Positions 1,409 through 40,093 of a stretch of DNA of 41,165 nucleotides are shown here, in pieces. Positions within the stretch are counted from its first letter, which is position 1. Each line of letters starts with the position of its first letter. The position numbers and the translations under genes are program-made. The notes under the pieces are model-generated. The model searched no databases and was not told the origin of the DNA. It saw only the letters and a program-made list of their open reading frames with translations. This stretch comes from a virus. Where the stretch lies: positions 1-41,165 of the IMG/VR virus record IMGVR_UViG_3300033145_000895; one strand, written 5' to 3'.

Positions 1409-2371
1409 ATGGCCGAAGGGAAAATTTTTTCACAAAATGCTAATTATTTTCTTGCCGCCGCTGGACACTTGGGTGCTTTGAGGCGGATCCCCGCGCGCCG
1501 GCCATCCCTGCCCGACCTCATAAAGGAGTTCGGAAAGGCTTTAAAATTAACGGCGAAACCAGCCCACATCGGCCAGGTCGTCGGCATCGTCAAGCGGTTT
1601 GTCTGGCGATACGCCATCGCCGATGTTCGGAAGATAACAACCCAACAGATTCAGGATCATCTATTCCGCCTTTTTGAGGAGGGCAAACGGACGAGCACCA
1701 TCCGCAACCACTTCTGGGCGATGAGCCGGTTTTGTAGATTCCTCCAGCAACGGCGAATCCTGGCAGGCAGCCCGACCGAGGGCATCGATCTCCCGCCGAC
1801 CGTGAAGCATCTGCCACGATTCCTGGACCAGACCGAATACAATCAGGTAATCCGCCTTGCCCATGAGCACGGAATAATCGCAGAAGTCGGCTTGGCCCTC
1901 TTGACGGGCTTGCGGATGGGCGAGCTCCGCCGCCTTCGGTGGGCGGATGTTGATATTGTCGCCAAAGCCCTGTACGTCATCGAATCGAAATCCCGCCGGC
2001 CGCGCGTGGTCTGGCTGAACCGCCGGGCGAAAATGCTGCTCCGTTGGCAGCGGCGGCGGACTGGCACGCGCGATTATGTCTTTCCCGGCTGGGACCGCTC
2101 GCGGCAGTTTCGCAACAAACCCAGGTGCATCGGCTGGTGGCAAAAGGCTTTGGGGCCGATAATCGAGGCCATCCCGAAGTTCAAGGAGGCACCGTCTCAG
2201 GCACCGGGCAGAAGGTGGCACCTGTTCCGGCACACTTTCGCCAGCCGGGCCGTCCAAGCCGGCGTGCCGATCTTCAAGGTCTCGCAATGGCTCGGCCATT
2301 CGGACGTGCGGACCACGCAAATTTACGCCCACCTTGCGCCGAGCTGGGATGCCGACATTGAGAAGGCATAA
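1409..2371 (+). CDS. int: Tyrosine recombinase (phage integrase)
   Basis: This 320-residue protein is a complete tyrosine site-specific recombinase that should integrate and help excise the phage DNA. Residues about 30-120 form the SAM-like core-binding domain (TSTIRNHFWAMSRF). The catalytic domain carries Arg169 (TGLRMGEL), Lys194 (IESK), His271-x-x-Arg274 (HLFRHTF), His297 (LGHSD) and the nucleophile Tyr306 (IYAHL). All catalytic residues are present. It is transcribed against most of the genome from the promoter at 1043-1071. The site before the start is only G-rich (GGGGG), so coupling to the small upstream frame is possible. It converges with the holin-like gene. Confidence 0.96.
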   Translation: MAEGKIFSQNANYFLAAAGHLGALRRIPARRPSLPDLIKEFGKALKLTAKPAHIGQVVGIVKRFVWRYAIADVRKITTQQIQDHLFRLFEEGKRTSTIRNHFWAMSRFCRFLQQRRILAGSPTEGIDLPPTVKHLPRFLDQTEYNQVIRLAHEHGIIAEVGLALLTGLRMGELRRLRWADVDIVAKALYVIESKSRRPRVVWLNRRAKMLLRWQRRRTGTRDYVFPGWDRSRQFRNKPRCIGWWQKALGPIIEAIPKFKEAPSQAPGRRWHLFRHTFASRAVQAGVPIFKVSQWLGHSDVRTTQIYAHLAPSWDADIEKA

Positions 2372-4185: not shown

Positions 4186-4272
4186 GGAGCTGTGCGCGAG
4201 TGGCTTATGCGGATTGTCTCCAAAACAATTAAACCCGTACAGGTTTCCTGGGTTCGAATCCCAGCAGCTCCG
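4186..4272 (+). tRNA. Class II (serine-type) tRNA with CCA anticodon
   Basis: All arms fold. The acceptor GGAGCTG (4186-4192) pairs fully with CAGCTCC (4265-4271), with discriminator G at 4272. The D-arm pairs CGC with GCG around GAGTGGCTTAT. The anticodon stem ATTGT/ACAAT closes the seven-base loop CTCCAAA, so bases 34-36 (4220-4222) read CCA, the anticodon for UGG (Trp). A long variable arm (AAACC/GGTTT with loop CGTACA) and the T-arm CTGGG/CCCAG with TTCGAAT follow. The long variable arm, G1-G2-A3 and G73 are serine-type features, which conflicts with the anticodon. CCA is not encoded at the 3' end. Confidence 0.88.
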
Positions 4273-16073: not shown

Positions 16074-16913
16074 TTAGCTCGTCGGTGGGTAGTTGATCGC
16101 CTGAACATCGTCGTCCGCCTCTGGCAGCAGTAAGGCTATTTCCCGATGGTACGTTGCCAGGATGTCCCGATACTTGGGATGCTGAGTAAGGCTCAGGCCC
16201 TCTAGGTATTTCGCCATCACGCCGTTGTAAACCGCCTCCTGGAACTGATCGCCGTAAAGGATCGTTTCCTGGTCGGGGTGGTATCGCCAGTAGTGGATTG
16301 TCGCCCTGTACCCGGGGTCGATTACGCCATCCACCGTGGCGTCTGGAACAGCTTCGGAAACGACGATGCTGGTACTCGGTGAGCTGTAAGACGAAGAGGC
16401 GACGGTGTACGTCCCATCGTTGCCGGGCGAGCCGGTGATCTTGATACTGTCGGCTGCGACGAACCGCGATGCGTAACTGCCTTCAATCGTAAAGGTCTTG
16501 TTCCCTGTGTCCACGCCGGTTATCGAATAGGTCTTGGCAGTGTCCGGTATGGGGTCCAGGTAGAACGCCTTGCCACGCTTGGCGTACCTTCTCGGTTCTT
16601 CGTAACTTGCGGAGGTCTCGGACTCCCTCCTCCTGAGCCATTCGGGGTACTGTATCGAGTCCAGGGGCTTTCCTTCGTCGGTCCCGTCGAAGATTGTAAT
16701 GTAGTCCAGAATCCGGAAATTGGCGGGGTAGGCAATCGACGTATCGCCATTGAAGACGTTGACGATGACGGATGTATGCAGGTCCGGCCAGCGGGCGAAC
16801 TTGCTTATGTCGGACAAGGTCGAATAAATCTGGTCGGATATAGTGTCCGTATCTTCGTTCTTGTCCAGCCTCGCGTTCAGAGCAGCAACGATTTCATCCT
16901 CGGTTATCGCCAT
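16074..16913 (-). CDS. Head-tail connector/adaptor protein with inserted beta domain (279 aa)
   Basis: The N-terminal region (ITEDEIVAALNARLDKNEDT; IYSTLSDISKFARWPDLH) and the C-terminal helices (YRATIHYWRYHPDQETILYG; YNGVMAKYLEGLSLTQHPKY) fit phage adaptor proteins that bind below the portal, of the kind found with P22-type portals (gp4-like). Residues about 128-200 (TGVDTGNKTFTIEGSYASRF; ITGSPGNDGTYTVASSSYS) form a Ser/Thr/Gly-rich beta insertion that looks like a separate domain. The start lies 20 bases after the hairpin at 16933-16980. Confidence 0.7.
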   Translation of the reverse strand: MAITEDEIVAALNARLDKNEDTDTISDQIYSTLSDISKFARWPDLHTSVIVNVFNGDTSIAYPANFRILDYITIFDGTDEGKPLDSIQYPEWLRRRESETSASYEEPRRYAKRGKAFYLDPIPDTAKTYSITGVDTGNKTFTIEGSYASRFVAADSIKITGSPGNDGTYTVASSSYSSPSTSIVVSEAVPDATVDGVIDPGYRATIHYWRYHPDQETILYGDQFQEAVYNGVMAKYLEGLSLTQHPKYRDILATYHREIALLLPEADDDVQAINYPPTS

Positions 16914-16932
16914 GATTCATCTGCCTTAAACT

Positions 16933-16980
16933 GCATAGCGGAGCCGGGCTTCGGGAGGTCCCAACCCGACCCCGCTATGC
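16933..16980 (-). other. Long interrupted hairpin in the connector leader
   Basis: GCATAGCGG at 16933-16941 pairs with CCGCTATGC at 16972-16980, and the interior adds CGGG/CCCG and GGG/CCC pairings. The 48-base element sits 20 bases upstream of the connector start. It could stabilise the 5' end of a processed message or attenuate expression. It has no U-tract after it. Confidence 0.6.
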
Positions 16981-16993
16981 GCCTAACAAACGA

Positions 16994-17013
16994 ATCCCGA
17001 TATACATCGGGAT
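16994..17013 (-). terminator. Terminator-like hairpin after the secreted protein gene
   Basis: ATCCCGAT at 16994-17001 pairs perfectly with ATCGGGAT at 17006-17013 around a four-base loop, ten bases beyond the stop of the gene at 17024. On the minus strand it is followed by TCGTTTGTT, an imperfect U-tract. Partial termination is likely. Confidence 0.5.
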
Positions 17014-17023
17014 CGTCCCGGAT

Positions 17024-18430
17024 TTATTCAGTACCCCAAGTCCCATTCTTGGACAGGGTAACCCATCTTGTGGCGTCGATAGCAAGCAGCGTGATGTTCT
17101 GACCGAGCGCGTCTGTTACGCTCTCGATATAGTTGCCGTTCGTAGCGCCATCGATGTTGTCGCCTACCTGGCAGTCGATAATGACGTCATCGCCTCCGGT
17201 AAGAGAGTTGTCCACAAAATGGAAAATCAACCCGGCGGCAGCATCGGGGAGCGTATGCGTCTGCGTGCCCGTGTAGTCGGACACTAACACCTTTCCGCTC
17301 TCGGCGGCGGTTAATTCGTTGGTTTCCGTCGCAACCACCTCCACCGTCAAGAGGCCATTCGATACTGCCGCACCACCAAGGCTGTACGTGCCGGTAACGG
17401 CAAGCGTCAGGTCGCCGGCGGCGGTGAGGGTCATATCGTCCGCCGCATCAAGCTCGATGTCGCCGTTGCTGCTGCCGTCTGCGTGCACAAGTATTCCGCC
17501 ATCGGTCGTTTCGAGTATCAGGGCATCGCCCGCGACGGTCGTCGTGCAATCAATCTTGAAGGCGTCGTCGTCGTCTTCCTGAAACTCGATTTTTATGTCG
17601 TCGGCAGTTCCGAACGTAAGAAAGTCATCGTCGGAAATCCGAAGATCGACGCCAACGAAGTGCATCAGATCAGCGCTCGCATCGATGGTGATAATGCTGG
17701 ACGCGGTCTTGGTGTACCACAGCAAGTCGGCGGTATGGTTAGCGTCGCCGATCCCAAGAATGCTTGCGTCGTCTGTGGTAACCGGGATGAAATCCAGCCT
17801 CTTGGCGGCGTCGCAGTCAATCGTCCAATCCAGACCGGTTCCGAAGATTATGTCGCTGTCGTCGTCAAAATGAATGTCGGCATCGACGAACTCAAGCTGA
17901 TCATCGGAATAGTCCCATGTCACGGTATTCGACGCCGTATCGCCGAAAAGCAGGAAATCGACACCAGTGCCATCTACGCCGAGCGTCATGGTTCCGGTCC
18001 ACGTGGAGGCCACACCGGTCACAGTGCCGGTATAGGTCGCTGCGGAAGTTACGACCGCCCAGTTGGTGGCCAGCATGATCCGGTGGTCCATAGGCGTAAC
18101 TGTCAACACCTTGACCGCGTTCTCGTTGTCATCGTGCGTTACGATGATGTCGCACGTCCCGTACTCATACCAGAAGTCGATCTGGCCGGTTTCGATGCTT
18201 GTCAGTTCATCTGTAACCGCCGTATCGCCGGTGGCGTCCGTGTAAACGGTCGCAGCCGAGCTTCCGGCAATGTAAACAACACTGCTTGTGGCGTCAGTAA
18301 CCTTCTGGCCGAACTCGTCCACGATGGTCAGTGAGTAGTGCTTTAAGGCCGCTTCGGCCCCGCCAGCGCCGGATGCGACGGTAGCGAAGGCGAAGATGAC
18401 CATGCACCCTATTGCTAAGAGCTTCTTCAT
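17024..18430 (-). CDS. Secreted beta-rich protein with Sec signal peptide, in the capsid cluster (468 aa)
   Basis: The ATG at 18430 follows AAGGAGA and begins MKKLLAIGCMVIFAFATVAS, a clear signal peptide with cleavage probably near AEA-A (residues 26-30). The mature protein is very acidic, Asp/Thr/Gly-rich and strand-rich, with many short repeats around VDADIHFDDDSDIIFGTG and ISDDDFLTFGTADDI. The C-terminal region (TLPDAAAGLIFHFVDNSL; TRWVTLSKNGTWGTE) resembles ends of phage fibre proteins. It sits directly after the major capsid gene, separated by a terminator-like hairpin. A signal peptide on a virion gene is unusual. It may be a fibre exported to the cell surface. Confidence 0.7.
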   Translation of the reverse strand: MKKLLAIGCMVIFAFATVASGAGGAEAALKHYSLTIVDEFGQKVTDATSSVVYIAGSSAATVYTDATGDTAVTDELTSIETGQIDFWYEYGTCDIIVTHDDNENAVKVLTVTPMDHRIMLATNWAVVTSAATYTGTVTGVASTWTGTMTLGVDGTGVDFLLFGDTASNTVTWDYSDDQLEFVDADIHFDDDSDIIFGTGLDWTIDCDAAKRLDFIPVTTDDASILGIGDANHTADLLWYTKTASSIITIDASADLMHFVGVDLRISDDDFLTFGTADDIKIEFQEDDDDAFKIDCTTTVAGDALILETTDGGILVHADGSSNGDIELDAADDMTLTAAGDLTLAVTGTYSLGGAAVSNGLLTVEVVATETNELTAAESGKVLVSDYTGTQTHTLPDAAAGLIFHFVDNSLTGGDDVIIDCQVGDNIDGATNGNYIESVTDALGQNITLLAIDATRWVTLSKNGTWGTE

Positions 18431-18501: not shown

Positions 18502-19623
18502 TTAGTCCGCCGCGATCTGCGTGTCCACGGCCATCACGCCGTAGTCCACAGAGTTGAACACCGGCTTTGCCGCAGACATCATCACACCTGTTGCGATGCC
18601 CCAGCGGTCGCCGTACTGGAAATCTTTGAGCCGGTAGTACGGCAGTTGCCCATAAGCCTGGATACCGGCCTGAGCACCACAGAACAGCGACCTGGCAGCA
18701 TAGACGCCGCTCGCCAAGTCGTCGCCGCTCTCGAAATACTCGCTCGGCGTGGAGCCACCCGCACCCAAACGGGTAACAATCTTTTCCCATTCGTGGATGA
18801 TCACACCATCCCAGGCACCCAGAGCGCCCGTGAAGATGGGGTTTTTGCTGCCGCGAACATTGGCGTTCGATTGGATGTCTTTCCATTCCGCAGAAGCCTT
18901 GAGGCTCTTGGCCTGCAACGGATGGATTATCTGCACGAACCACGGCTTACCATCGACCATGATCGGACGCATAACCGGCTCTGCAAGCAGGGCGGCCCGC
19001 TTGACGGCCTCGATGACCCGCGGGCCGAAATACTCATCGGTCTCGCCGTTAGTCAAAGAAGCGTCAGTTGTGTCGCCAAATGAGGTGCCGGCAACATCTG
19101 CCACGGATTGCCCACCAACCCACTTCCTGCTCGGCGTAACGGCGGAAATATTACCGTCGGTGGTAGCCAGGCCCGATAGGGCGTACAGCGTGTAGAGGTC
19201 GATCTTGTGGGCAAGCCACTCGCCCAGGGCATCTTTCGCCTGCATCTTCGCATTGAAGATCACCCTTTTGTCCGAGAGCGTGCCTTGAGACTGAACGGCG
19301 TGGCGAATCTTGAAAAGCTCCGTACTGAAATCGTAGAAGCTCAGGGCTTCCTCGTTGCCTTCCAAGTCGTCATCGCCGGCCACGCCTTCGCCCGTCAATG
19401 GAGCGCGCATGCCGAATGTAACCTTGTCGCCCTTGCCCTTGGTGAAGTCGGTCTTCAACTGAATCATGGCATTGGGGCTGGTGGAAATGTCCACGCCTTT
19501 TTGAGGGACGTTCTTCCCAATGAACTTCGAGAAAAATGCCCTGAAGCGCATATATTGGAACATCACGGCAGACCACTTCTCCACGCGGAGAGCATGGCTT
19601 GTGCTGAATTCTGTTAAAGCCAT
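18502..19623 (-). CDS. Major capsid protein, N4-gp56 family
   Basis: TTAGGAG precedes the ATG. The 373-residue protein matches the N4-gp56 family of HK97-fold major capsid proteins: the early region with KGKGDKVTFGMRAPLTGEGV and LEGNEEALSFYDFSTELFKI, the conserved helix KMQAKDALGEWLAHKIDLYT, and a later segment with WVQIIHPLQAKSLK and GVIIHEWEKIVTR. It builds the icosahedral shell together with the upstream scaffold-like protein. Order portal, scaffold, capsid is normal for short-tailed phages. A second, unrelated capsid family gene is at 32983-34143. Confidence 0.93.
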   Translation of the reverse strand: MALTEFSTSHALRVEKWSAVMFQYMRFRAFFSKFIGKNVPQKGVDISTSPNAMIQLKTDFTKGKGDKVTFGMRAPLTGEGVAGDDDLEGNEEALSFYDFSTELFKIRHAVQSQGTLSDKRVIFNAKMQAKDALGEWLAHKIDLYTLYALSGLATTDGNISAVTPSRKWVGGQSVADVAGTSFGDTTDASLTNGETDEYFGPRVIEAVKRAALLAEPVMRPIMVDGKPWFVQIIHPLQAKSLKASAEWKDIQSNANVRGSKNPIFTGALGAWDGVIIHEWEKIVTRLGAGGSTPSEYFESGDDLASGVYAARSLFCGAQAGIQAYGQLPYYRLKDFQYGDRWGIATGVMMSAAKPVFNSVDYGVMAVDTQIAAD

Positions 19624-20608: not shown

Positions 20609-20788
20609 CTACGCCAGCTTCTCACCGGGGAACATCACGCTCTCTTCGATGTTCGCATTGACAGGCTCGCCGCCATGAAAATTGACCCGTATCGAGCCGT
20701 AGAAGTCGGGATTTTTCGTCAAAGTTTCCCTTGCCACTTCGCACACCTTTGCAATCGCTTCCAGTATTTTCGCCTTTTGATCCATCAT
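20609..20788 (-). CDS. Small protein coupled to the portal gene (59 aa)
   Basis: The ATGATG at 20788 overlaps the portal TGA, which fixes the start. The protein reads MMDQKAKILEAIAKVCEVAR and then a short strand-rich part (FYGSIRVNFHGGEPVNANIE). Its function is unknown. Position between portal and scaffold suggests an assembly or accessory role. The terminator at 20521 follows directly. Confidence 0.6.
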   Translation of the reverse strand: MMDQKAKILEAIAKVCEVARETLTKNPDFYGSIRVNFHGGEPVNANIEESVMFPGEKLA

Positions 20789-22590
20789 TGGGCGCCCGCC
20801 GGTTGCGGTTGTTGCGTCTGGCCGGCAGCGGCAGCCTGCGTCGCCGCCAACCGTTTCAGGAAGGCGATAATCTCTTCCTTGTTCGGCACGTCGGAAAGCT
20901 CCATAATCATTTCGGGCGGAATCGGGATTCCCAGCCGGACACATTCAAGCATCTGCTCGAAGTTGGCGAGCCTTATTGTTGGCAGGTTCGGCGACTGAGA
21001 AACCTTGACGCCGTACCGCCCCTGTTTCCAACTTCGCATCGGCGACAGGTCGATGGTCTGCTCGCCCGTAACCTCGTCAACCTGCATGAACCCTTTCAGG
21101 TGCGATTCCTCCACAACGGCCACGATTTCCTCGTCGGAGTAAACCTCCGAGTCCCGGATGACCTCCCAGAGGAACAGGCCGAGCTGCCTTTGTGTCCGGC
21201 GGAAGTTGTCGAAGATGATTTCGGATACCGTCAAGCCCGCCGTCTGGCGGATCAGCCTGGCCCTGCCGGACTCCGTCTGCTCCGGCTTCGTTCCCATCAT
21301 GTCGGGATTCACGCCGGAAATGTCCTTTATGTCCTTGGCCCCCTGCTGCGAAAGCAGGAAATGCCCCTGGTCCAGCGGCGGAGGGTCCATCCGTTCTATC
21401 TTTCCGCCAGCCTTGGATTCGTCAAGTATCACACCGGGTTTGGAACCAAACTTGGCAAGTTGCTTGTCGTAGTCGCCCATGACCTTCGCAACCTTGATGC
21501 CCGAATTGACCGACTGGTTCAGGTTGTGAAGCACCTGCGAGCGGTTCTTGTTGATCTCCTTCTGCGGGTCCAGCAGGTTATCGACAACGCCCATGATATA
21601 GCCATCCACCCAGTAGGGGCAGAAGCGAAAGAACGGGAAAAGCGCGATGTTGCCCAACGGGTTTTCGACGTGCTCCAGGACCATATCGCCCACGGCAACG
21701 ACCTTGTGCATGACCGGTGCCGGCCGCTCGACGACTCGCCACTCGCCCGATGTCAACAGGTCCGGGCGCTGCTCGTACAGCCTCTTCGCCTGGGTCTTTT
21801 TCAATCGGCGGATTTTCAGAGTCGGCACATGAACCAGAAAAACACAATTTTCCCACTCTTTGTACCAGCACTCTTTGATCAGGTAATGCGTTTTCGCCCG
21901 GGCAGCATCTTCATCGAAACCACCCTGGCCCAGCTCGCCGTAATCATCCTCCGTCGGATACTGCGAATACTTCTCAGAGGCCCATTCCGCCGAAGATGTA
22001 GCCTCCGACAGCAGCCCCTTCTTCTTCGGGTACTGCAACTCCACCTGGTGCTGGTTCCACCAATACCGCTTGAAAACATACGCGCCCTTGTTCAGGTCGT
22101 AGTCTTTATTGTTCTGGTCCTCCAGGATGTCGAATGGGCTTTCTTTGTTGACGACCAGGTCGCCGTTGATCGGATCGACGGTAAACTCCTGGTCTGCACC
22201 GACCCACCCCTTGCCGCCGATAAGCCCATCATGGAAGGCGTCAGATAGGGCGTACACGCCATCGCAGGTGTCCATCGTATGCTTGATAAGCTGCGTGCCT
22301 ATCGACGCGACAAGGACCGTTCCTCGCCTGCGGGGGTACAGGCGTATGTCGCTGCGGTTCTGCCGCTGGTATCCGGAGAGCATGTTGATCACCGGGAACA
22401 CATGGTTGATCGTCAGGGCTGGTCGGCCTTCGCGCACGAGTATTTCAATGACCGCCGGGTCCCACTGCTGGATTCCGGTGTAGAATCGGTACGCCTCCTT
22501 GGCGCGCTGTTCCCATTCGGCATTCACGTCAGCAGCGGCGTTATGCCACCCTTTGAGCTTGTCGATCAGCTTGGTCTCGGATTCAGGCAT
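20785..22590 (-). CDS. Portal protein, P22-type
   Basis: This 601-residue protein begins MPESETKLIDKLKGWHNAAA. The N-terminal region (EQRAKEAYRFYTGIQQWDPA; REGRPALTINHVFPVINMLS; GYQRQNRSDIRLYPRR) is diagnostic of P22-type portals, which form the dodecameric channel for DNA entry and exit. The central part has the clip/stem helices (LLDPQKEINKNRSQVLHNLN), and the C-terminus is a Gln/Ala-rich tail (AATQAAAAGQTQQPQPAG). It lies between the large terminase and the scaffold as expected. It overlaps the previous gene by eight bases. Confidence 0.9.
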   Translation of the reverse strand: MPESETKLIDKLKGWHNAAADVNAEWEQRAKEAYRFYTGIQQWDPAVIEILVREGRPALTINHVFPVINMLSGYQRQNRSDIRLYPRRRGTVLVASIGTQLIKHTMDTCDGVYALSDAFHDGLIGGKGWVGADQEFTVDPINGDLVVNKESPFDILEDQNNKDYDLNKGAYVFKRYWWNQHQVELQYPKKKGLLSEATSSAEWASEKYSQYPTEDDYGELGQGGFDEDAARAKTHYLIKECWYKEWENCVFLVHVPTLKIRRLKKTQAKRLYEQRPDLLTSGEWRVVERPAPVMHKVVAVGDMVLEHVENPLGNIALFPFFRFCPYWVDGYIMGVVDNLLDPQKEINKNRSQVLHNLNQSVNSGIKVAKVMGDYDKQLAKFGSKPGVILDESKAGGKIERMDPPPLDQGHFLLSQQGAKDIKDISGVNPDMMGTKPEQTESGRARLIRQTAGLTVSEIIFDNFRRTQRQLGLFLWEVIRDSEVYSDEEIVAVVEESHLKGFMQVDEVTGEQTIDLSPMRSWKQGRYGVKVSQSPNLPTIRLANFEQMLECVRLGIPIPPEMIMELSDVPNKEEIIAFLKRLAATQAAAAGQTQQPQPAGAQ

Positions 22591-32982: not shown

Positions 32983-34143
32983 TCAGTCCGTGGACAAACC
33001 CGTAATCATTCCGTGGGCGTTTTCATTGCGAAATTCCAGCGTGTACTCGCCGATGATCTCGCCTGCTTCGTAATCGCCCGTACTGGCGAGGGGTTTGTAG
33101 TGGAAGCTCCTGCCGGCAAGGGGAAGTACTGCAATCCGCGAGCTGTCCAGCAGCAATACCGTGTCCGCCGGGATGTGCCGGCAAAGGATTACGCGGCAGG
33201 TGCCGAAGTCGCTTTCGTACATACCGACGAGGTCGCGGTAGGCCACGTCGTTTGGACCGTAAGCGCGGCTCGAACTGATAAAAGAGTTGATTCTCCGCTT
33301 CTGGAGGCCGCCGACAACGATGGTGTCAACGCAGCCGGTAGAGCGTTCCCACATTAAATGTAGGGCTGTGTCGAGCTGGACCTCGGTTAGATCGGTATCG
33401 GCGGGGAGGCCGCCGATGCCGGGCTTGAAGATATTGGTCGTCAAGCTCGGGATGATCCCCTTCATTGTTCGGCGCACTGTCTCGGAACCCTGGGGGTTAC
33501 TAGACGGCGACGCCCCGTTGATAACCGTACTTTCCAGATCACGGAGCAATTCACGAAGGCGCTCCTGCTTCTGGTAGTCCAGCTCGTCAGCGACAGCAAG
33601 ATTGCGTACAGCCAATTTGGAGCCGCTTACACGGACGGCAGCGGTGAATATCTGCGTCCAGTTGCCGTTTCGGACACGGTTGGTGAAGCGGACCGACGGT
33701 GCGTCGTCGCCCTCCAGGGCGGCGTTACCCAGGATGTGAAGCACCTGGTCGTCGGCGAGATCCTCAGCAGTTGTCCCGCCGTAGCCGCGGGTAACGGTGA
33801 TGGTATCGTTTCCCGTATCGACAGCGGTAACCAGCAGCAGTTCACCACTGCCGGCGGGGCGAACCTGGTCGCCCACACGGAAGCGATCCGCGTGCTCGGT
33901 GCCGAACGTCGTGTCGGCCGCCGGATCGGTCCACGAGTCATCGTCGATAACGTCGGTGTTGGGCAGCAGTTCATCCTCCAGCCATTCGTGGTAGGTGCTG
34001 GTAGCCGCTCGCGGCGGATCGCCAAGGTGGTCCAGCAAGGGGGTTTCGTAAGGCGATACGATGCTTACGATGTCGCTGATGTTCTCGGTACGTTCAGGCA
34101 TCGAATCGCCCGCCGAGTAAGTCGCTTTGCCTGTAAATGCCAT
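32983..34143 (-). CDS. Second capsid gene: SU10/DUF5309-family major capsid protein
   Basis: AAGGAGAG precedes the ATG. The 386-residue protein has the family opening (MPERTENISDIVSIVSPYET; YHEWLEDELLPNTD), an inserted beta segment (RFRVGDQVRPAGSGELLLVT), then RFTNRVRNGNWTQIFTAAVR, KQERLRELLRDLESTVING, and the end (PLASTGDYEAGEIIGEYTLE; FRNENAHGMITGLS). This is the SU10-type (DUF5309) HK97-fold major capsid family, unrelated in sequence to the N4-gp56-type capsid gene at 18502-19623. It sits among recombination and methylation genes without portal, scaffold or terminase. It could interfere with other viruses, coat another particle or be a remnant. It has no frameshift. Confidence 0.85.
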   Translation of the reverse strand: MAFTGKATYSAGDSMPERTENISDIVSIVSPYETPLLDHLGDPPRAATSTYHEWLEDELLPNTDVIDDDSWTDPAADTTFGTEHADRFRVGDQVRPAGSGELLLVTAVDTGNDTITVTRGYGGTTAEDLADDQVLHILGNAALEGDDAPSVRFTNRVRNGNWTQIFTAAVRVSGSKLAVRNLAVADELDYQKQERLRELLRDLESTVINGASPSSNPQGSETVRRTMKGIIPSLTTNIFKPGIGGLPADTDLTEVQLDTALHLMWERSTGCVDTIVVGGLQKRRINSFISSSRAYGPNDVAYRDLVGMYESDFGTCRVILCRHIPADTVLLLDSSRIAVLPLAGRSFHYKPLASTGDYEAGEIIGEYTLEFRNENAHGMITGLSTD

Positions 34144-35778: not shown

Positions 35779-36267
35779 ATGGCTAAAAAACATCTTATCA
35801 TCCCGCTGTTCACTCCCCAAGACATTCTTCGCTTTTGGTGCAAGGTTGATTTCGCCAGTCCTAACGGATGTTGGGAATGGCAGGCAAAACTGAACTCCGG
35901 TGGTTACGGACGCTTTGGGCTGGAAAGGGATGCGTTTCGCGCCCACCGCATTGCATGGTCCATGGCATATGGGCCTATTCCCTCCGGCCTGTGTGTTTGC
36001 CATCATTGCGACAATCCTTCCTGCGTGAATCCGGCTCATTTGTTCGTTGATAGCGTCGTTGGCAATAATGCCGACATGACGAGAAAGGGCCGGAGGCCTT
36101 GCGGAGAGCAACATTGGATTGCCAAACTCACGGCCAAGAAAGTCCGAGATATTCGGATGCGATATGCGAAGGGTGGCGCAACACTGACCGAGTTGGGCCG
36201 AAAGTATGGCGCCCACTTCGTGACAATTTGGGACGTTGTGCATCGGCGAACATGGAAACATGTTTAG
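35779..36267 (+). CDS. HNH endonuclease (free-standing homing type, 162 aa)
   Basis: AAGGAGA precedes the ATG. The HNH core is FWCKVDFASPNGCWEWQAKL, GGYGRFGL, FRAHRIAWSMAYGPIPSG, LCVCHHCDNPSCVNPAHLFV, with two zinc-binding cysteines and His residues. The C-terminal part (AKLTAKKVRDIRMRYAKGGA, TLTELGRKYGAHFVTIWDVV) is a NUMOD-like HTH for DNA recognition. Such enzymes cut DNA to spread their own gene. It lies on the opposite strand between the exonuclease and RecT genes and overlaps the RecT stop by four bases, which marks it as an insertion. Confidence 0.9.
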   Translation: MAKKHLIIPLFTPQDILRFWCKVDFASPNGCWEWQAKLNSGGYGRFGLERDAFRAHRIAWSMAYGPIPSGLCVCHHCDNPSCVNPAHLFVDSVVGNNADMTRKGRRPCGEQHWIAKLTAKKVRDIRMRYAKGGATLTELGRKYGAHFVTIWDVVHRRTWKHV

Positions 36268-38746: not shown

Positions 38747-38967
38747 CCGGGGGTGGGCCTTTGGTCGCTCAAAACCAGCCGTGTTTCGGTAGGCCCTATT
38801 GCGGCGGGGAGTTTCGAGGCTCCCTTGGATAGTCCTTTTAGTTTCGCCGGATCGTTCCTAACTAATCATGGTCCCCGGACTCGGATGCCACGCTCTGCCG
38901 TGGCCGCCGCCGCACTCTGCTCAAGTCCCTTTATCTCATTGTTATTCTCCTTGTTAAGTTTTTCACT
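38747..38967 (-). other. Structured leader of the endolysin gene
   Basis: No gene of normal length lies here. Hairpins on the minus strand include CCACG/CGTGG near 38890, GGGCCT/AGGCCC between about 38755 and 38801, and an eight-pair hairpin at 38735-38753 (CCCCCGGA with TCCGGGGG) whose loop contains an ATG. A two-codon frame lies at 38931-38939. The stretch looks like an untranslated, regulated leader that continues from the RNA upstream. Confidence 0.5.
38931..38939 (-). CDS. Possible two-codon minigene (Met-Arg-stop)
   Basis: AAGGAG at 38952-38947 stands exactly seven bases before ATG AGA TAA (38939-38931). The ribosome binding site is among the best in the window, yet the frame ends after two codons. 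Minigenes such as the lambda bar ATG-ATA-TAA frame are known to trap peptidyl-tRNA. A sequence error hiding a longer frame is the alternative. Confidence 0.35.
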   Translation of the reverse strand: MR

Positions 38968-39264
38968 GCGGCGGGCAGGAATTGCACCTACCTGTCGGGA
39001 CGCGTCCGGCCGACTATCTACTCGCCGCATAAGCTGGCGCGGCCGGGCTTCACCCACCCGACGTCGAAGGCTCGCGCTTTGGCTAGGCTTGTTAGGCCAA
39101 CGGCCCTCGGTTACTGCCCCTCGGAGCAGCCAAATGGACACGCCAGTTAATCGCTGGTGTGGCAGGATTGGCCTTACCCGCTACCTGCTGTGTGGGTTCG
39201 CGGGAATATCGTCGGCCCACTTATCCGACCCGCATAGCGTGTTCGCACCACGCCGCACACCAGC
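38968..39264 (-). ncRNA. Candidate structured RNA, about 297 nt, three consecutive helical domains
   Basis: Domain 1 is closed by nine perfect pairs (39256-39264 with 39153-39161) and holds three hairpins: 39237-39241/39249-39253, 39200-39204/39229-39233 with an inner 39212-39215/39225-39228, and 39162-39166/39184-39188. Domain 2 is closed by 39139-39146/39034-39041 with inner helix 39128-39134/39078-39084. Domain 3 is closed by 39023-39028/38968-38973 with hairpin 39010-39014/38994-38998. Two helices contain a G-U pair on the minus strand that would be A-C on the plus strand, so the RNA is minus-strand. It follows the 57-residue gene and precedes the endolysin leader. I could not match it to a known class. 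Confidence 0.65.
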
Positions 39265-39288
39265 TCACTATTCAGTTGTCAAGTTCCT

Positions 39289-39462
39289 CTACTCGCCCTT
39301 CACTAGCTTTAGGGCTTCGATTGCGCACTGAAGTTGTTCGCGTAGCTTCTTCACAACTTCGCACAAATACGCATCTTCGTTTTCTAATCTCTTACATCGT
39401 TCGCCCAACGCCTTTACCCGCTCCCACAAAGGCGGCTCTGGGTAATGGTCTCCGTTAGGCAT
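39289..39462 (-). CDS. Short coiled-coil protein (57 aa)
   Basis: AAGGAGAAAG precedes the ATG at 39462, which opens MPNGDHYPEPPLWERVKALG and continues GERCKRLENEDAYLCEVVKK to a stop at 39289. Residues 12-54 form a continuous charged helix with heptad spacing, similar in style to the coiled coils at 27277 and 37972. Strong ribosome binding site and position eleven bases after the upstream gene support it. Function unknown. It ends 24 bases before the structured RNA. Confidence 0.72.
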   Translation of the reverse strand: MPNGDHYPEPPLWERVKALGERCKRLENEDAYLCEVVKKLREQLQCAIEALKLVKGE

Positions 39463-39473
39463 CTTCTTTCTCC

Positions 39474-39992
39474 TTAGCTATCCAAAACAGTAGTTTCACC
39501 AGCACCACAAAATCCAGTCGGCTCATATTGCTCGATAACATCCTCGCATAGCTTGCGGAGAATCTTCGGCAACACAACGGCTTGCAAATCGTCGCATAGC
39601 TGAGCTACCGCTGCTTCTTTCTTGGCTTCGTCAACGGCGTATTTTATGGCGAAGCGCCAACTCTGCTGTTCGATTGTTCCGATGATAATGGCGGCCCTTT
39701 CGGCAATATCTCGATACGGCTCGTGTATAAAGCTGCTAACCAATCGAATAGGCACAATCGACTGCGCTAGTTCCAGCCTCTTGTCGTGTTCTTGGCTCGC
39801 CTTGTCCCGCCAGCCCGAAACCTCACGTTTGTGTTCTTCGTTCAAGCGCCGAAAGACACGGCTTCGCCATCGGTTATGCAACCACTCCCACCGAGCCAGG
39901 TTCGCGCGAACTTTTAAACACGTCTTCCTGCCAAACCGGAGTTGTATGACAATATAATCAAACACCGTCATTTTGCCGACTTCGGGTATCAT
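39474..39992 (-). CDS. Hypothetical protein, helical (172 aa)
   Basis: ATG at 39992 overlaps the stop of the small membrane peptide (ATGA), so it is preferred over the ATG at 40022. The protein begins MIPEVGKMTVFDYIVIQLRF and has a basic first part (ANLARWEWLHNRWRSRVFRR) and a helical second half (AERAAIIIGTIEQQSWRFAI). The C-terminus ends FCGAGETTVLDS. It has no recognised family and no membrane spans except a moderately hydrophobic segment near residue 100. Its neighbours suggest an early accessory gene. Confidence 0.6.
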   Translation of the reverse strand: MIPEVGKMTVFDYIVIQLRFGRKTCLKVRANLARWEWLHNRWRSRVFRRLNEEHKREVSGWRDKASQEHDKRLELAQSIVPIRLVSSFIHEPYRDIAERAAIIIGTIEQQSWRFAIKYAVDEAKKEAAVAQLCDDLQAVVLPKILRKLCEDVIEQYEPTGFCGAGETTVLDS

Positions 39993-40093
39993 TTCGCTCT
40001 CGCTACCCACAAAAACAGCCATCGCAGCACCACGGCGACAAAGGCTAGTACAGGCACGGTTAGTATCGTTCTAATTCCTTGCGGGCTCACCAT
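39989..40093 (-). CDS. Short single-span membrane peptide (34 aa)
   Basis: GGAG lies five bases before the ATG at 40093. The frame MVSPQGIRTILTVPVLAFVA continues VVLRWLFLWVARAK and stops at 39989. Residues 8-31 form one hydrophobic helix with positive charges at both ends. Overlaps with the genes on both sides (ATGGTGA upstream, ATGA downstream) support translation. Small membrane peptides in phages often modulate lysis, superinfection or host enzymes. Function unknown. Confidence 0.6.
   Translation of the reverse strand: MVSPQGIRTILTVPVLAFVAVVLRWLFLWVARAK

Follow-up and report, generated by a model that had tools for sequence, protein, structure and literature searches.

The virus record IMGVR_UViG_3300033145_000895 was analysed over its whole length of 41,165 bases, which we refer to as the window. 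We regard it as a tailed phage because it carries genes for a P22-like portal, capsid and terminase proteins, RecT, an exonuclease, DNA methyltransferases and a tyrosine integrase (Table 1). Relatives of the portal with 41-43% identity are located on contigs of Planctomycetota MAGs, and relatives of a lysozyme-like ORF with 35-41% identity occur in three Planctomycetota genomes. Judging from these sequence relationships, the host of the phage is likely, although not proven, to be a planctomycete. Two distinct major capsid protein families are present within this one genome, and between the genes for the exonuclease and RecT there is an inserted ORF for an HNH endonuclease (35779-36267, plus strand), oriented against the genes on either side.

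The region of interest is a gap of about 540 bases without genes. Near it, the genes are on the minus strand, in the order of a gene at 39474-40022, a 57-aa ORF, the gap and the lysozyme-like ORF. The preliminary description of this DNA had already pointed to the gene-free bases, and we agree that there is no convincing gene: neither the ORF lists nor a six-frame translation yielded a plausible protein on either strand of the gap, and the ORFs that overlap it in both orientations are not gene-like. A 91-aa ORF (38866-39141) was rejected since it has no Pfam or PHROG match and its GC pattern is not coding-like. Likewise, no conserved protein frame, which had been named as the alternative to an RNA, was found in the gap. 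The downstream neighbour had been called an endolysin; its phmmer matches to lysozymes of solved structure are weak (best E 0.003), and it belongs to no Pfam, PHROG or NCBIfam family. A search of the region for sigma-70 promoters found none, and the one terminator-like site is below the chance expectation of 1.6. Just downstream of the third of the folded domains discussed below is the two-codon frame ATG-AGA-TAA with a good ribosome-binding site, AAGGAG. This may be a minigene, similar to the phage minigene lambda bar, or it may have arisen by chance.

Table 1. Positions of the features discussed in the text (window coordinates unless a locus is given).
Feature	Position	Strand	Remarks
Tyrosine integrase gene	1409-2371		
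Capsid, Phage_capsid_3/phrog_334	18502-19623	-	beside the portal
Portal, P22-like	20785-22590		
Capsid, SU10_MCP/phrog_1328	32983-34143	-	far from the portal, amid recombination and methylase genes
Lysozyme-like ORF, 180 aa	38204-38746	-	flanks the gap; weak lysozyme similarity
Gene-free gap	38747-39288	-	ORF lists and six-frame translation
Possible domain 4	38800-38914	-	8-bp closing stem; from the helix list
Possible minigene	38931-38952	-	AAGGAG, then 7 nt on ATG-AGA-TAA; direct reading
Domain 3, tRNA-like, 63 nt	38967-39029	-	closing stem 39029-39023/38973-38967
Domain 2	39034-39146	-	8-bp closing stem 39146-39139/39041-39034
Domain 1	39153-39264	-	9-bp closing stem 39264-39256/39161-39153; branched interior
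57-aa ORF	39289-39462	-	flanks the gap
Gene	39474-40022	-	
Streptomyces phage element (YDN12, Abt2graduatex2, Geonosis)	L031:2420-2526, L032:2419-2527, L035:2499-2606		

Predicted folding of the gap

Within the gap, a stretch of 297 nt had been described as helical in almost every part. This impression was not borne out, since 60% of its bases are paired in the predicted fold, whereas dinucleotide shuffles average 65%. The minimum free energy (MFE) is -129.4 kcal/mol on the minus strand (z -0.99) and -123.6 kcal/mol on the plus strand (z -0.79), and a second set of shuffles gave a z-score of -0.71. After correction for composition, the stretch ranks 105th among 1366 segments of 300 nt in this genome. 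The 297 nt as a whole are thus predicted to fold in an ordinary manner for their base composition, and the preliminary description overstated how unusual they are.

Three successive domains with closing stems of 9, 8 and 6 pairs had been distinguished; the first two stems are as described, but the third consists of 7 pairs. We also identified a possible fourth domain, unreported before, in which the outer 7 pairs of the closing stem repeat the TGCGGCG/CGCCGCA of domain 3 (11/12 across the repeat) and a hairpin, GGGAG/CTCCC, is joined to the closing stem; nothing stands out in the way its interior folds. The succession of closing stems is of borderline significance. A tiling as good as that of the 511-nt stretch was obtained in 6 to 14 of 200 shuffles, the p-values against shuffles range from about 0.03 to 0.13, and 5-7% of the genome segments of the same length contain a row as good.

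The individual domains differ in how well they are defined. The junction of three hairpins proposed for domain 1 is indeed drawn in the MFE structure, and the last hairpin (39188-39162) abuts the closing stem directly, but the domain, which has a z-score of -1.87, is predicted to be thermodynamically ordinary, and its ensemble is ill-defined. The interior of domain 2 comprises a hairpin (39130-39113), a long arm (39109-39065) and a 7-bp hairpin (39062-39042) placed directly on the closing stem. Its energy is -53.9 kcal/mol on the minus strand versus -42.1 kcal/mol on the plus strand, with a z-score of -1.84 and, on the minus strand only, an ensemble diversity of 0.056 per nt (2% of shuffles at or below this value); it ranks 56th of 3424 in the genome. 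For domain 3, the energies are -28.7 and -23.3 kcal/mol on the minus and plus strand, respectively, the z-score is -2.57 and the ensemble diversity is 0.024 per nt (0.5% of shuffles at or below this value), again specific to the minus strand. Each of domains 2 and 3 belongs to the top 2% or so of the genome for stability and well-definedness, although boundaries picked afterwards by the closing stems bias such domain-by-domain tests. The earlier assignment to the minus strand on the basis of G-U pairs therefore holds for these two domains, whereas the fold of domain 1 is about equally good on either strand. When the whole gap was folded at once, the closing stem of domain 3 was outcompeted by other pairings in the model.

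A search with the tRNA model and with filters turned off gave no convincing match in domains 1, 2 and 4. No local structure in the genome is more stable than one located elsewhere, at 16921-17035 on the minus strand (z about -5), and its hairpin, GCATAGCGGGG...CTCCGCTATGC, is directly upstream of the ORF at 16074-16913.

The tRNA-like domain and the search for relatives

Domain 3 is predicted to be laid out like a tRNA that lacks a D-stem. Its minus strand, read in the 5' to 3' direction, consists of TGCGGCG, AGTAGATA, GTCGG-(11 nt)-CCGAC, A, GGTAGG-TGCAATT-CCTGCC and CGCCGCA. The two ends form an acceptor-like stem of 7 bp, followed on the 5' side by a D-like strand of 8 unpaired nt (AGTAGATA) and an internal stem (39014-39010/38998-38994). 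The T-arm (38992-38974) joins the acceptor stem directly and has a loop of 7 nt, with a T-stem of 6 rather than 5 pairs. A D-arm and an anticodon loop of 7 nt are absent from the domain, which has the 8 unpaired nt and the 11-nt loop in their place.

The resemblance was picked up by two covariance models, in both cases with scores below accepted thresholds. A covariance search against Rfam, as suggested in the preliminary description, recovered no family at gathering score in the whole window, including GOLLD, ROOL, group I and II introns and known ribozymes. At E<=10 there were three matches in the region, all at chance level. The best of these in the 1.2-kb region was tRNA-Sec, which covered exactly domain 3 at the full length of the model, with 17.4 bits and an E-value of 2.4 in cmscan, as compared to a gathering score of 47. 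ARAGORN called no tRNA in the gap, and no canonical cloverleaf was recovered there by ARAGORN or by Rfam at gathering score.

A second model was built from the 25 tRNAs of a dense array, which spans 3 kb on contig 68 of a Planctomycetota genome (G119, locus L039) and is likely to sit on a mobile element. The top match of this model in the window was the true tRNA at 4186-4271 (E 1.2e-4), which is the only one that ARAGORN calls in the window, and the second was domain 3, with 13.7 bits and an E-value of about 0.16, or 0.0023 when the region was searched alone. The test is not fully independent because the array itself was found by searching Planctomycetota for the 3' end of domain 3, but just 1 of its 25 tRNAs matched the domain. 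As in domain 3, the T-loop has an unusual start, TGC instead of TTC, in 5 of the 25. A tRNA-Gly of the array ends in GCAGGTGCAACTCCTGCCAGCCGCACCA, with 3 mismatches in 25 to the T-arm and acceptor end of domain 3, and only two sites with at most 3 mismatches to this end were found among 392 Planctomycetota genomes. The true tRNA of the window (4186-4272, plus strand) is itself peculiar: ARAGORN calls it a tRNA-Trp(CCA), yet its body of 87 nt is of type II, with a long variable arm and a G discriminator like those of a tRNA-Ser next to the Trp anticodon, and it is possibly a chimeric tRNA.

In blastn searches of domain 3 against phages, the best matches (24/26 nt in the T-arm and acceptor end, E 0.2) were to an unannotated intergenic element of Streptomyces phages. 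Conserved among three phages, this element shows full compensation at two base pairs of an inner stem, contains T-loop-like hairpins and no D-stem, and, for two of these phages, is scored as tRNA-Sec with about 27 bits. Like domain 3, it is intergenic and combines a GCGGCGA 5' strand, a 6-bp T-stem and a CGCCG acceptor end with the lack of a D-stem. Unlike domain 3, it is about 105 nt long with three inner hairpins, and the sequence likeness is short and confined to the two ends, so that it could reflect convergence on tRNA sequence. A T-arm pattern searched in IMG/VR had two matches, namely an ordinary tRNA-Trp and, once more, the Streptomyces phage.

No DNA homologue of the stretch was detected in 50,697 phage records searched in distant mode, in nine portal-related records or genomes, or in the 392 Planctomycetota genomes. 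The search of the Planctomycetota genomes returned 16 short matches at E<=0.01, of which 8 were aligned and found to be short and chance-like. The best one aligns 23/23 nt with the beginning of domain 2 and lies in an AT-rich coding region. Scans of IMG/VR anchored on the lysozyme-like ORF, RecT and an upstream 182-aa ORF gave nothing, and patterns placed across the junctions of domain 1 and of domains 2/3 gave isolated matches of 16-22 nt only. In the same database, the portal query identified one 46% relative on a short contig, and a two-row portal alignment identified five further relatives at 24-52%, the closest (52%) on an 8-kb contig.

Compared to known RNAs, domain 3 shares with tRNA and tRNA-Sec (RF00005 and RF01852; clan CL00001) the acceptor-like stem closed by both ends and the T-arm, with its T-loop-like TGCAATT, abutting the acceptor strand. 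It differs from them by the missing D-stem, the lack of a usable anticodon loop, the length of 63 nt, a score far below gathering and the lack of an ARAGORN call. The tRNA-like domain of tmRNA (RF00023) has the same succession of acceptor, unpaired D-like strand, internal stem and T-arm, but no tag frame or pseudoknots were recognised here, nor was there a tmRNA match in ARAGORN or Rfam. GOLLD and ROOL are large structured RNAs known from phage genomes (PMC12286853); both are much larger, and no common sequence or fold was detected.

Interpretations of the gap

Three lines of evidence, namely the tRNA-Sec match in Rfam, the planctomycete tRNA model and the Streptomyces element, are each weak, but in combination they favor descent from a tRNA, or mimicry of one, above any other single reading of domain 3, and we adopt it tentatively from the sequence likenesses. 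With somewhat less than even confidence, we favor the account that the gap belongs to an untranslated part of a transcript running leftward, and that its 3' domain is a reduced or decayed tRNA without a D-arm. The sequence, its helices and a weak match to a tRNA model are observed, and we infer from there a transcript, an origin from a tRNA and a processing of domain 3. It is unlikely to be an ordinary translating tRNA because the D-arm and the anticodon loop are missing. One possibility is that it is the dead remnant of a tRNA gene; phages gain and lose tRNAs, and remnant tRNA genes are to be expected. Alternatively, if domain 3 is still active, it would most likely serve as a processing signal. 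RNase P would then cut at its 5' edge (around 39029/39030) and host enzymes for tRNA 3' processing at its 3' edge, and these cuts would separate the structured leader upstream from the lysozyme-like message downstream. One functional RNA, as in the preliminary description, finds no support in the folding energy of the 297 nt, which is ordinary, or in Rfam, where no family matches at gathering score, and no homologue was found for it. The support that we have is for domain 3 as a tRNA-like element, and the classes suggested earlier, such as a packaging RNA or a ribozyme, are unsupported.

We also considered the possibility that the gap contains no specific RNA, being an ordinary GC-rich leader or spacer with the helices to be expected from such a composition, in which domain 3 resembles a tRNA by chance. 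This seems unlikely to us, even though it agrees with the z-scores on the minus (-0.7 to -1) and the plus strand (-0.8), the paired fraction below that of shuffles, the closing stems equalled in other genome segments and the lack of a homologue and of an Rfam family. It is less easily reconciled with a gap of about 540 nt where the genome is otherwise tightly packed, with domains 2 and 3 being individually well defined and strand-specific, and with the position of domain 3 just behind a real tRNA under the tRNA model.

Another hypothesis is that the gap encodes one compact RNA, non-coding and made up of three or four domains that work as a unit, a regulator or scaffold of an undescribed family, with the tRNA-like domain as its processed 3' end. 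In its favor, domains closed one after another by stems of 9, 8, 7 and 8 bp cover almost the whole gap, domains 1 to 3 each have their last hairpin directly on the closing stem, and ensemble diversity is low in domains 2 and 3. We nevertheless consider this improbable, given the borderline p-values of the tiling, the ordinary folds of domains 1 and 4, the lack of a homologue and the competition among domains when the full gap is folded.

Tyrosine integrases use tRNA-like 3' ends as attachment core. That the inverted repeats act as DNA, in a replication origin, packaging or recombination site, would suit the tRNA-like 3' end, the presence of an integrase gene and the similar folding of domain 1 on both strands, but it is very improbable in view of the better folding of domains 2 and 3 as minus-strand RNA, the distance to the integrase gene, which is not adjacent (about 3.6 kb off even if the genome is circular), and the mere two near-matching sites in Planctomycetota genomes.

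Returning to the tRNA-derived domain, a more far-reaching conjecture, and in our opinion a long shot, is that phages of unrelated hosts, Planctomycetota and Streptomyces, share a class of untranslated RNAs whose end is a tRNA-like domain without a D-arm and with a T-stem of 6 bp; through it, tRNA-processing enzymes of the host would be recruited to phage transcripts in order to cut or stabilise them.

We view the gap as a lead of modest weight and not as an established new RNA, and long helices that are spotted by eye in a GC-rich sequence provide little evidence of a functional RNA. If domain 3 is a decayed tRNA, its recognition is a minor point of annotation. If it is active, it would represent a phage-borne processing signal that has been overlooked by tRNA finders, and its likeness to a conserved, unannotated element in Streptomyces phages suggests that tRNA-like elements of phages may be under-annotated.
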